From positions 1 to 64,000 of the forward strand of contig NZ_FOZM01000004.1 in the NCBI RefSeq assembly GCF_900114675.1: a stretch of DNA of 64,000 nt. The letters run 5' to 3'. How positions within the stretch are numbered: position 1 is the first letter of the stretch; every line of letters begins with the position of its first letter. The position numbers were made by a program, and so were the translations under genes. Positions 38,230-59,481 of this stretch are shown here, piece by piece. Below the pieces are notes generated by a model. That model was not told where the DNA came from. It saw only the letters and a program-made list of their open reading frames with translations, and did no database searches. The stretch is from Yoonia litorea. Lineage in GTDB: Bacteria > Pseudomonadota > Alphaproteobacteria > Rhodobacterales > Rhodobacteraceae.

Positions 38230-39072
38230 CTAGGCATCACCCCCCAAGTCCTCCCAAATCTCCTCGACCCAAGCTTTGATCACCTGCGCCTCTTCCCAGC
38301 GGTTCGACATCTCGCGCCCGTCGGGGCCTGTCATCGCATATTCCGGCGGCCCCAACTCGCAGACAAAAATGCAATCCCCCGACGCATTCCGCGCCCGCCA
38401 GTCGGCCAGCCCCTCGCGCCACCAGCCCTTGAACAGCTCGACCCATTTCTGATGCTGAGGGAAATCCAGTTGCAGCTGGATCTGCTGGCGCGACGCCACA
38501 CGGCCCTGAAAACTGTCCGAGCGCTGCAGGATGCGGCTGATCAGGCCAAGGTCATGCTCTGACAGCGGAAACCAGAACTCGCGATCCACCACATAATGCG
38601 ACAGGTCCGCGCAAATCCGCATGTCCGGGATGCGGTCGAGCAATTGCAGCGTCGTATAAAGATCATTGGTGATGCAGTTGCGGTGCGTCTCGAACTGCAC
38701 CGGCACACCGATGCGCTCGGCCATGGCCATCCAGGTTTCAATCACCGGCACCATGTCGTCCAAGGCAATCGGCATCACCTGCCCGATCACATCGACGAAC
38801 GGCGCGCCAAAATCGGCCGCCATATGCAGCGTGTCCTCAAGGCTCTCAATCGTTTTGGGAAACGCCACGATCAGTGGCGTCAGCCCATTCGCCTGCATAT
38901 GCGGGCGGACGGCGTGGGCCGTCGCCACATCAGAGGCACCCAGATCAATCGCCATGCCGTCGAACCCGGCGCTCGCCACCATTTCACAGACCTGATCATA
39001 AGGCAGCTTCACGCCCGTCTGATCATGGGGCTGCATCGCCCAAAGCGAGGTGTAGACCTGTAGCCGCCTCAC
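38230..39072 (-). CDS. Sugar phosphate isomerase/epimerase-family TIM-barrel protein
   Basis: Protein of 280 residues with an AP-endonuclease-2-type TIM barrel. VQFETHRNCITND, ICADLSHYV and VCELGPPEYA contain likely metal ligands (Glu, His, Asp, His, Glu). It may isomerise or epimerise a sugar or inositol-like compound; the substrate is unknown. The start is GTG 39072, overlapping the desaturase stop (GTGA). Confidence 0.85.
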   Translation of the reverse strand: MRRLQVYTSLWAMQPHDQTGVKLPYDQVCEMVASAGFDGMAIDLGASDVATAHAVRPHMQANGLTPLIVAFPKTIESLEDTLHMAADFGAPFVDVIGQVMPIALDDMVPVIETWMAMAERIGVPVQFETHRNCITNDLYTTLQLLDRIPDMRICADLSHYVVDREFWFPLSEHDLGLISRILQRSDSFQGRVASRQQIQLQLDFPQHQKWVELFKGWWREGLADWRARNASGDCIFVCELGPPEYAMTGPDGREMSNRWEEAQVIKAWVEEIWEDLGGDA

Positions 39073-40052
39073 TCGGCTGGCATCCGCACTGTGCGACCAC
39101 CGGAACGCGGGATGACCCAGACCTCATCCATCGGGTACTGGCTTTCATCCTTGGCCATGAGCTTCCCGATCACCTCGATCTGGAATTCGATCCAGCCCAT
39201 GCGATGCACCTCGCCCGCCTTGTCCTCGATCTTGTCGTTGAGTTCCTTCAGCTTCCAGAAGGGCACCGCAGGAAACGTATGATGCGCGGTGTGATAGGGC
39301 ATCTGCCAGCACAGCCAGTTCTGGAAGGCATTGGCGCGGGTCGAGCGGGTGTTTTCCATGATGTCGTTCTCATGGCTGAGACCCAGATGTTCGATCGTGT
39401 TCTGCAACTGATGAACAGGCTTGGTCAGGATCATCGGAAGCAACCAAAAGGTCACCGCAAACCACGACCCTGCAATAACCGAAGCGAATGCGATCAGCGC
39501 ATAGCCTGCCAGATGCAACCGGCTTTCGAGAATGACCTTGGCCTCTTCTTCCTTGCGGATGAACGGCTCGATGATCACGCCGGACGCGCGCCGCACGACA
39601 CCGAACACACGGTTGCGCCAATAGGTGATGCCGGTCAGCCAGAGAAGATAGGTCCGTATCGTGTAGGGCTCGCGGACCAACTCGCCGTCACGCTCCCAGT
39701 TCTGCGTGTACTGGTGATGGGCAAAATGCATGATCTGGTCAAAGTCGCGCGGGAAAATCTGGATAAAGCCGATGATGCGGCCAAAGACCTCGTTCAGCTT
39801 GCGGGTCTTGAAGACAGTGGCGTGCGACAGCTCATGCTGTGCCGCATAGAGAAAGTTCAAGAGCACACCCAGCGCCGCACCTGTCACCCAGACCCAACCC
39901 GTCCCCATCGCCTGCCAGTGCAAGAGCCCCACCAAAAGGATCGCACCAAGATGGCTGCCCATCTGGATCGCGCCCCTCAGATCAGAACGGGCCGAGAGGT
40001 CTTTCAACTCGACAGGCGTCAGCAGCTTGCGGCGGGAAAAACTGGCTTCCAT
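39069..40052 (-). CDS. Membrane fatty-acid desaturase/hydroxylase-family protein
   Basis: Protein of 327 residues with several membrane segments and three histidine boxes: HELSH (from His73), HFAHH (109-113) and a late HTAHH. These hold the di-iron centre of membrane desaturases and related hydroxylases. Start at ATG 40052 with AAGGAGA five bases upstream. It leads the desaturase-isomerase-VOC operon and is divergent from fadH across a gap with 11-bp repeats. Substrate cannot be assigned; a modified lipid is plausible. Confidence 0.88.
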   Translation of the reverse strand: MEASFSRRKLLTPVELKDLSARSDLRGAIQMGSHLGAILLVGLLHWQAMGTGWVWVTGAALGVLLNFLYAAQHELSHATVFKTRKLNEVFGRIIGFIQIFPRDFDQIMHFAHHQYTQNWERDGELVREPYTIRTYLLWLTGITYWRNRVFGVVRRASGVIIEPFIRKEEEAKVILESRLHLAGYALIAFASVIAGSWFAVTFWLLPMILTKPVHQLQNTIEHLGLSHENDIMENTRSTRANAFQNWLCWQMPYHTAHHTFPAVPFWKLKELNDKIEDKAGEVHRMGWIEFQIEVIGKLMAKDESQYPMDEVWVIPRSGGRTVRMPAE

Positions 40053-40079: not shown

Positions 40080-42284
<2,205 letters not shown>

Positions 42285-57334: not shown

Positions 57335-57937
57335 GTGATTAATCATCACGAGAGATGCGGCTGGGCTGGGCCAGAGCAGATCTACATCGACTACCACGAT
57401 ACCGAATGGGGCGTGCCGGAGTACGACAGCCGCGCCTTGTGGGAGAAGCTGATCCTTGACGGATTTCAGGCTGGCCTGTCATGGATTACCATATTGAAAA
57501 AACGGGATAATTTCCGCGCAGCCTTTGAAGGATTCCAGCCAGAGATCATCGCCGAATGGGGCGAGGCGGACGTGCGGCGATTGCTGTGTGATGCGGGGAT
57601 AATCCGGCACCGTGGCAAGATCGAAGCGACCATCGGGAATGCGCGGGCCTATCTGGAAGTCGAAGCGCGCGAGGGTTTTGACCGCTTTTTGTGGAGCTAT
57701 GTCGATGGCGTGCCGCTGAGGACGACACTGAGTGATCGTGCTTTGATGCCGACGCAGTCGCCGCTGTCGGCGCAGATCAGTAAGGACTTGAAAAGAAACG
57801 GTTTCAGGTTCTGCGGCCCGACGATTGTCTATGCATTTATGGAGGCGACCGGCCTTATCAATAACCACCTGACGGGCTGTTTTCGCCATGCCCCATGTGC
57901 CGCGATGGCACGGGATCGGGCAGAGGTTTTGGGCTAG
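57335..57937 (+). CDS. tag: DNA-3-methyladenine glycosylase I
   Basis: Protein of 200 residues starting with GTG (MINHHERCGWAG). Typical Tag pattern: RCGWAG (zinc Cys), YHDTEWGVP, LILDGFQAGLSW, and a C-terminal NNHLTGCFRH with His and Cys zinc ligands. It excises 3-methyladenine from alkylated DNA. Followed 32 bases later by the second 11-bp array. Confidence 0.94.
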   Translation: MINHHERCGWAGPEQIYIDYHDTEWGVPEYDSRALWEKLILDGFQAGLSWITILKKRDNFRAAFEGFQPEIIAEWGEADVRRLLCDAGIIRHRGKIEATIGNARAYLEVEAREGFDRFLWSYVDGVPLRTTLSDRALMPTQSPLSAQISKDLKRNGFRFCGPTIVYAFMEATGLINNHLTGCFRHAPCAAMARDRAEVLG

Positions 57938-57968: not shown

Positions 57969-58030
57969 CGTACACCAGACGTACACTGGCCGTACACAAC
58001 CTGTACACAGGCTGTGCACCGGCTGTGCAT
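57969..58030. repeat. 11-bp-period array of a GTGTACA-type motif (copy 2)
   Basis: On the plus strand seven-base cores start exactly 11 bases apart at 57969, 57980, 57991, 58002, 58013 and 58024 (CGTACAC three times, TGTACAC, TGTGCAC, TGTGCAT). Read on the minus strand, the order is ATGCACAGCCG, GTGCACAGCCT, GTGTACAGGTT, GTGTACGGCCA, GTGTACGTCTG, GTGTACGCCCT. This is the order of the array at 40125-40179 with one extra unit. It lies between tag and the MFS gene. Confidence 0.85.
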
Positions 58031-58191
58031 ACAGCCGCCAAACCGCGCAGCGCGGCGGTGGAAGCGGCTGCTGACGTATCGTGCGGCATTGGCACGCCTT
58101 AGCAGCATTCCAATGTGATCCTGCCAATCCGACCACAGTCACCTCAGAATGCGGTATTGCACGCAGGTTGAGAAACGCAGATGCTGCCCAA

Positions 58192-59481
58192 ATGGCAACC
58201 GAGATCGCCTTCTCTTACACTGCACTGAGCGAGGCGGCGCGACGGCATATCCGTCTGTTCCAGGTTCACCAGTTTCTTGACCGGTTTGCGATGGGTCTGA
58301 CGGTTGCGGTTGTCGCGCTGGCGCTGACCGACCGTGGGTTGGACCTGTTCCAGATCTCGCTTCTGTTCGGGGTCTATTCACTGACGACAATGACGATGGA
58401 ACTGCCCTTCGGTGGGCTGGCAGATGCCATCGGGCGCAAGCCTGTCTTTCTGGTTGCGGTCGTCGCCAGTCTGATTTCCCTCGCCCTCTTCCTGTCATCG
58501 AGCAATTTCGGAGCCCTTGCAGTTTCCTTTGCCTTCATCGGTTTCGGGCGGGCGCTGCGATCAGGCACGCTGGATGCGTGGTTTCTGGAGACCTTCAGGG
58601 TCAACGCGCCAAATGTCGATGTGCAGCCCGCCCTTGCCAAGGCGCAATGGGCAAATGCCATGGGCCTTGCGATTGGCGCGGTTGTCGGCGGGCTGCTGCC
58701 GGATGTCTTCGGTGCGCTCGGACTGCGCTTTGGCATCACGATTTACGATGTGTCCTACGCCGCAGGCTTTGTCGCCATGTTGGGCGTGCTGATCTTTACC
58801 GTTGTCGCCGTCAAAGAAGAACCGCGCCCGTTGAACCCCAGCGCGCTGCGGCAAGGGTTTGCCAGCGTCCCGTCAGTAATCGCAGATGCCGGCATGCTTG
58901 CATTGAGGCATCCGACGCTTTCCATCCTTTTGGCGGCGCTTGCCCTGTTCCTGTTGGCGACAAATCCGGTTGAAGTGATCTGGCCGACATTTGCCAGACC
59001 GATGCTGGATGCAGACTTTGCCAGCACTGCGATTGGTCTTTTGACTGCCACCTATTTCCTTGCGATTGCCTTTGGCGCGTCACTGTCGCCACATATCAGC
59101 CGCATCTTCAAACGGCGGCACGCGGTGACGCTTGCGGCCGTGTTTGCCGCACTTGCTGCCGCGCAGATCACGCTGGCCCTGCAAGAGGGCATCATCGGAT
59201 TTGCTGTCGTCTTTGTCGTGTTTTCCATCGTGCTTGGCGCAAGCGAGACACCGGCAAGCAGTATCCTGCATCGCTGCGTTGAAGATCGCCAAAGATCGAC
59301 CATGTTGTCGCTGCGGTCACTGATCCAGCAGTTGGGCGGTGCAAGCGGTCTCGTGATGGTGGGCGCTCTGGCGGAGGCTTACACGACATCTGTGGCTTGG
59401 ATCATCGGCGCGGGCTTTTTGCTGATCGCGGTCGCGCTTTGCCTGATTTTGGCGAAACGGATGGCAGATGACGCGCGGTGA
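58192..59481 (+). CDS. Major facilitator superfamily transporter
   Basis: Protein of 429 residues with about twelve membrane segments. The loop GGLADAIGRKPVFL is the MFS motif A between helices 2 and 3, and the second half repeats the pattern less strictly. Substrate unknown. Start taken at ATG 58192, without a clear Shine-Dalgarno. The 11-bp array lies 160 bases upstream and may regulate it. Confidence 0.85.
   Translation: MATEIAFSYTALSEAARRHIRLFQVHQFLDRFAMGLTVAVVALALTDRGLDLFQISLLFGVYSLTTMTMELPFGGLADAIGRKPVFLVAVVASLISLALFLSSSNFGALAVSFAFIGFGRALRSGTLDAWFLETFRVNAPNVDVQPALAKAQWANAMGLAIGAVVGGLLPDVFGALGLRFGITIYDVSYAAGFVAMLGVLIFTVVAVKEEPRPLNPSALRQGFASVPSVIADAGMLALRHPTLSILLAALALFLLATNPVEVIWPTFARPMLDADFASTAIGLLTATYFLAIAFGASLSPHISRIFKRRHAVTLAAVFAALAAAQITLALQEGIIGFAVVFVVFSIVLGASETPASSILHRCVEDRQRSTMLSLRSLIQQLGGASGLVMVGALAEAYTTSVAWIIGAGFLLIAVALCLILAKRMADDAR

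Follow-up and report, generated by a model that had tools for sequence, protein, structure and literature searches.

Phased 11-bp arrays in Yoonia litorea and other Rhodobacterales as candidate protein-docking sites at shared chromosomal slots

Two related arrays in the window

The window analysed here, the first 64,000 nucleotides of contig NZ_FOZM01000004.1 of Yoonia litorea, carries a short tandem array between two plus-strand genes, tag (57335..57937), encoding DNA-3-methyladenine glycosylase I, and a gene for an MFS transporter (58192..59481). The array (57970..58032) is located on the minus strand, 33 bp from the stop codon of tag and 162 bp from the start codon of the transporter gene, and has a period of exactly 11 bp. 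It consists of six cores spanning 57970-58030, namely ATGCAC, GTGCAC (58014-58019) and four GTGTAC units (58003-58008, 57992-57997, 57981-57986 and 57970-57975), separated by the spacers agccg, agcct, aggtt, ggcca and gtctg; it can also be read as a left edge, GTATGCAC, at 58025-58032, followed by five cores. A sister array on the plus strand (40123..40176) begins with the same left edge, continues with three GTGTAC cores and finishes with the right end GTGCATAC. Its five cores, ATGCAC, three times GTGTAC and GTGCAT, are separated by agcct, aggtt, agcca and gtctg, which is the spacer order of the 57970 array. The sister array is flanked on the left by a 984-nt minus-strand ORF predicted by our own gene caller (39069..40052), for which the 280-aa part searched (L036:2231-3073) has no NCBIfam match at 1e-10, and on the right by a plus-strand gene for an OYE/FadH-like oxidoreductase (40260..42284).

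A first-pass annotation of this DNA had described the array next to tag as six cores in reverse orientation that keep the unit order of the array near 40125, with one extra unit and two exactly shared 11-mers, and the sequence agrees with this description in full. Pairs of cores at this spacing (GTGTACN5GTGTAC, up to two mismatches) occur ten times in the window, as compared with 1.64 ± 1.19 times in 100 shuffles (maximum 5). Among the 231 pairs formed by the 22 arrays of this genome, the 57970 and 40123 arrays are the pair closest in spacer order. Upon shuffling of spacers among arrays, their score was reached by that pair in 0.1% of 2000 trials and by any pair in 2.3% of 300 trials; a special kinship of the two arrays, as judged from their spacers, is therefore suggestive, not proven. 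At 26 tag loci of relatives, three in-phase cores were found in none within about 1.5 kb of the gene (the tag matches of genomes G005 and G007 are just 47-51% identical and may be paralogues), and tag was rejected as a shared slot of the 57970 array. The junction between tag and the MFS gene appears to be particular to this genome. The bases 3' of tag differ, in most relatives read, from those at this place in Y. litorea.

Copies across the genome and occurrence in Rhodobacterales

The whole-genome scan for further copies that the first-pass annotation had proposed returned 22 arrays of GTGTAC-N5 units in the Y. litorea genome (G000; 3.32 Mb in 8 contigs), distributed over contigs C4, C5, C6 and C8. 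Three exact cores match 19 times genome-wide and a degenerate pattern with one mismatch 72 times, and the reversed control has 0 matches in both cases. Each array contains 4-7 cores under a 5-of-6 extension rule, and of the 115 cores 65 are GTGTAC and 18 are GTGCAC, a conservation that is partly built in because the arrays were selected by their cores. The left edge GTATGCAC is conserved among the arrays though it is absent from the search pattern, with GT.TGCAC at 1.2-1.9 bits and one position at 0.8, and 16 of the 22 arrays open with an ATGCAC or CTGCAC core.

In an exact-pattern scan of a genome collection, at least 116 stretches were matched. Among the 80 matches listed, 64 carry Rhodobacterales names, including Paracoccus, Gemmobacter, Roseovarius, Jannaschia, Nioella, Palleronia, Planktomarina, Octadecabacter, Sulfitobacter and Phaeobacter, and several of the 16 others resemble simple repeats. 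Going by these matches, the array repeat is frequent in Rhodobacterales. For the comparison of slots between genera, the 64 loci were used and the 16 that are outside the Rhodobacterales or unassigned were excluded. The exact triple is present in 7 of the 60 genomes nearest to Y. litorea, all seven of which are congeneric, and in none of the 24 genomes among these 60 that belong to other families of the class. Scans of a viral collection gave 70 and at least 120 matching stretches, and these loci were left out of all results. In the literature searched, which comprised open-licence papers, no article describing such arrays was found by title.

Within the genus, the arrays are built from two classes of core. 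Of 56 genomes including that of Y. litorea, 20 contain GTGYAY triples and 18 contain CCGAC triples, the CCGAC search giving one match of the reversed control, in G021. Large sets are mutually exclusive: the numbers of GTGYAY and CCGAC matches are 42 and 0 in Y. litorea and 0 and 177 in G011, the latter counted as CCGACN6 triples. Both classes are found in G012, G027 and G033, each with few matches; in G027 the array at lpd is of the CCGAC class and a beta-mannosidase gene contains an NTGTAC array, and in G005 the array at lpd is of GTGTAC type, with CCGAC arrays at other places. Given the presence of both core classes in one genome (G005, G027, G012 and G033), a single evolving protein is not the sole reading. 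Read side by side, the core classes have a common register, G-[TGT, TGC or CCG]-AC-G, and they may reflect either drift of one specificity or two classes competing for the same slots.

The 20 CCGAC arrays of G011 that were compared (L314-L333) are embedded in a block of about 120 bp that is partly conserved, spacers included. TTAA/GTTAAC motifs flank these arrays on both sides, at a distance of about 28 bp on the left and 35 bp on the right, and similar TTAAC boxes are found 5' of some arrays in Paracoccus and at the Y. litorea loci L043 and L045; these motifs resemble CtrA half-sites. In many of the G011 arrays the first and second spacers are complementary, in either order (TTTTG/CAAAT, CAAGT/TTTTG), and the third is mostly CGATG.

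Slots shared between species

The slot preceding lpd is occupied by at least three in-phase cores in 18 of the 23 genomes of the genus read, of GTGTAC type in eight, NTGTAC in three, GTGCAC in five and CCGAC in two. It is shortened or degenerate in three further genomes (G016, G019 and G033) and without an array in two (G012 and G032). The set comprised 25 genomes, two of which (G020 and G075) have no lpd match at the cut-off, and the lpd tree was built from 22 of the 23 genes, with G016 left off. On this tree, Y. litorea and G027 are paired with a support of 83/94, and G005 and G007 are sisters with a support of 100/100. The two sister species nevertheless differ wholly in the cores at this slot, which is occupied by a GTGTAC-type array in G005 vs a CCGAC array in G007.

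Six slots are common to Y. litorea (22 arrays) and G061, of whose 25 arrays 20 were fetched; three of the six slots (L043/L295, L050/L306 and L066/L312) are supported by one flank only. Two slots are shared with G011 (20 loci fetched), one of them the 40123 slot, which in G011 (L331) is occupied by a CCGAC array. G008, G010 and G060, which are nearer to Y. litorea, have further slots in common with it. By a rough estimate, the sharing expected by chance is well under one slot. Sharing also extends to other genera. Four loci, from Nioella, from Planktomarina and from two species of Paracoccus, have an array 24-27 bp after the stop codon of gltD and antisense to it, with gltD genes that are 72-83% identical; in Y. 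litorea the array follows gltD at about 11 bp. An array precedes lpd in two loci of other genera, from Palleronia and another member of the Rhodobacteraceae, and is found next to a fabH-like gene in one locus from Sulfitobacter. These counts exclude a weak match (L139) and a paralogous one (L320).

Comparison of these sequences supports selection on the arrays, through slots common to congeners and to other genera. The first-pass annotation had attributed the conserved unit order of the two window arrays to common descent or strong selection rather than chance; the part concerning selection has gained support, and a special kinship of the two is no more than suggested. An absence of further copies, together with a lack of conservation at both window loci, had been named as evidence against that proposal, and what was found is copies throughout the genome and a 40123 slot held in common with G011.

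An array within a coding sequence

One Y. litorea array (L038) is located within the coding sequence of a beta-mannosidase, where the protein aligns with a variable part of beta-mannosidases of solved structure. Among 27 orthologues, the array codons contain at least three in-phase cores in five, two cores in three and none in 19. The cores are GTGTAC in Y. litorea and G075, mixed in G076, NTGTAC in G027 and GTGCAC in G031. No gap is present at the array region in the 19 aligned rows covering it, and the array has therefore been gained or lost by substitution, that is, without a change in length at this one site. Three arrays of G061 (L296, L297 and L301) also appear to be inside long open frames, of 813, 875 and 721 codons, respectively, and orthologues of the protein at L296 are found in 13 of 13 genomes.

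Gene context, folding and replication geometry

Of 62 arrays from three genomes, 22 run in the same direction as both flanking genes and 21 in the opposite direction; the flanking genes are divergent in 10 further cases and convergent in 8, and 1 case was left unassigned. Gene calls for these counts come from our own script, and some arrays overlap predicted open frames; the cores of G061 and G031 are palindromic, and array direction was set there by our own spacer rule. Array direction is unrelated to transcription. Neighbours in Y. litorea include lpd, gltD, sarcosine oxidase genes, agmatinase, an ABC transporter, rplO, lldD, biotin carboxylase genes, TrkH and tag. An NCBIfam scan gave matches for 30 or so of 40 neighbouring proteins, and no functional theme was seen by inspection among the annotated ones. 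A regulon of functionally linked genes, as considered in the first-pass annotation, is not supported, the neighbours being unrelated on inspection and placement being independent of transcription direction.

Mean folding z scores of the two strands, relative to base shuffles, are -2.9 and -2.3 in Y. litorea, -2.3 and -1.6 in G061, and 0.1 and 0.2 in G011, and no Rfam family matched at gathering score in 7 loci. With respect to replication, origin and terminus were placed by sampled GC skew, which is coarse, and weak in Paracoccus mutanolyticus. The skew-based replichores of this species contain 8 plus- and 6 minus-oriented arrays and 3 plus- and 4 minus-oriented arrays, respectively; a post hoc split of the chromosome gives 4 plus and 9 minus before 2.02 Mb and 7 plus and 1 minus after it (Fisher p 0.024). 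Within 0.5 Mb, three of its arrays are near the estimated terminus vs six near the estimated origin. Seven consecutive arrays between 2.05 and 3.19 Mb of this chromosome (G080 C1) are identically oriented. In G031 the skew-based replichores contain 7 plus and 5 minus and 7 plus and 7 minus, with eight arrays near the terminus and four near the origin, so that neither replichore polarity nor depletion around the terminus was found by sampled GC skew in this genome. In P. mutanolyticus no polarity is seen between the replichores so placed, and the pattern as a whole is ambiguous.

Proposed function and competing explanations

We hypothesize that the arrays are docking sites for a head-to-tail DNA-binding protein at fixed chromosomal slots, which is probably the best explanation of their layout. 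The DNA-binding domains would line up head to tail along a single face of the helix, one for each 11-bp unit, and the distinct left-edge half-site would complete the platform. The Y. litorea genome would contain about two dozen platforms of this kind, of which several occupy old slots common to other species, and the specificity of the protein, or the choice among related proteins, would change between species while the slot stays. Protein binding itself and its head-to-tail geometry are suggested by analogy with CarH operators. Two congeners without an lpd array and the absence of an array from most beta-mannosidase orthologues speak against docking. As to the task of such platforms, we tentatively favour a genome-wide structural or roadblock role over the switching of one pathway, because of the direction independence, the in-gene slot and the lack of an evident theme. 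More speculatively still, Rhodobacterales chromosomes may carry a conserved set of protein-docking slots that would be the bacterial equivalent of architectural sites; a fast-evolving or interchangeable binder would rewrite the recognised word of these slots genome-wide between species, even within a gene.

The main rival is that an ordinary transcription factor, either MerR/CarH-like or OmpR/PhoB-like, controls a very broad regulon, with the arrays as its operators or as internal operon roadblocks, many of them in central metabolism. This is quite possible, if not the reading we favour: different species have slots beside the same genes, namely lpd, gltD, agmatinase and a metE-like gene, and direct repeats of 11 bp are a known operator geometry (PMC9304148). 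The annotated neighbourhoods, however, have no functional theme on inspection, and arrays are also found right after stop codons, in convergent gaps, in a gene and in either orientation. Of the genome-wide regulon or mobile intergenic repeat that the first-pass annotation had envisaged, the genome-wide extent stands, with 22 arrays, and the mobile repeat has lost ground to the old slots and the unchanged length of the in-gene site. A dispersed, MITE-like family without a function of its own would fit the partial likeness of some 120 bp around the 20 G011 copies, spacers included, and the very different copy numbers between species, but it is unlikely, as shared slots hold different sequences and the in-gene array occupies the same codons in five orthologues at unchanged length; at this one site, mobile insertion was rejected, the array-less orthologues having no gap.

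Array direction, the lack of a shared function among the neighbours and the in-gene site likewise argue against an RNA element or a terminator as well as against insertion. GUGUAC and GUGCAC self-pair and could form hairpins in transcripts, in line with the negative mean folding z of Y. litorea and G061, but such a role is barely credible: the CCGAC class, foldless in G011, already contradicts it, direction is unrelated to transcription (22 vs 21), and an RNA motif or terminator was set aside on these grounds and on the lack of an Rfam match in 7 loci. Markers of replication or division, either polar (KOPS-like) or excluded from the terminus, would be expected to be scattered along whole chromosomes as the arrays are, and the post hoc orientation split and terminal deficit in P. 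mutanolyticus point the same way; mixed orientations within the skew-based replichores of both P. mutanolyticus and G031, and the excess of arrays near the terminus in G031, make them very unlikely.

If docking is the correct reading, the replacement of the recognised word at many loci of a single genus, with the slots themselves retained, would represent an unusual case of cis-trans co-evolution, for which the sister species G005 and G007 would provide a natural experiment on the rewriting of a genome-wide DNA specificity. Should the role be architectural, the arrays would constitute a new class of chromosome-organising bacterial site, frequent in Rhodobacterales.

Candidate binding proteins and comparison with known systems

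None of the MerR groups inspected contains a protein that would explain the core switch. The search covered MerR_1 domains, for which matches were listed in 14 genomes and part of them read. The helix ending LRFWE/LRxYE is identical in GTGTAC and CCGAC genomes in the ihfA-linked group (11 genomes), the SoxR-like group (4) and the tandem pair (6), and in this partial survey the MerR candidates are thus unsupported as the binder. A wing residue of the ihfA-linked protein is R in four GTGCAC genomes and G in seven others, a split that may reflect descent alone because the same four genomes are set off from the others on the lpd tree too. In the 11 genomes read, the DNA-binding domain encoded by the MerR-family gene at L655 (G000 C8:983784) and by its orthologues is strongly conserved, and the adjoining reading frames are presumably IHF-like and fabH-like. 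At L667 (G000 C8:1800202-1801091), two MerR matches about 0.6-1.2 kb apart are found in 14 of 14 genomes scanned, six pairs of which were read.

CarH binds tandem 11-bp repeats of the form nnnnTnnACAn, perfect beside imperfect ones, in operators that overlap promoters of carotenoid genes (PMC9304148). The operators of CarH and CarA (LitR), members of the MerR family, are thus tandem 11-bp direct repeats of 3-5 units like the arrays described here, and the CarH pattern is fitted by GTGTACA, with the TGTACA units of Y. litorea matching TnnACA. In contrast to CarH operators, the CCGAC arrays do not have the T of TnnACA, and the 22 slots of Y. litorea have no apparent relation to promoters, many sites being located after genes. 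No carotenoid gene is among the NCBIfam-annotated neighbours, and membership of the arrays in the CarH/LitR systems is not claimed.

OmpR/PhoB-family boxes are direct repeats of a hexamer plus N5 with an 11-bp period, usually a few units in the promoters of a coherent regulon. They share hexamer, N5 and period with the arrays; the coherent target set is not seen here. matS, Noc-binding sites, SBS and KOPS are single short sites with a positional or polar bias. Like them, the arrays occupy tens of chromosomal sites without a functional theme; unlike them, they are built as 11-bp arrays, without bias in G031 and with an ambiguous pattern in P. mutanolyticus. REP, BIME and MITE repeats are dispersed, short and mostly intergenic, and are also found within operons, all of which is true of the arrays. 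In contrast to these repeats, however, the in-gene site bears no insertion, and a slot is kept while its sequence changes.
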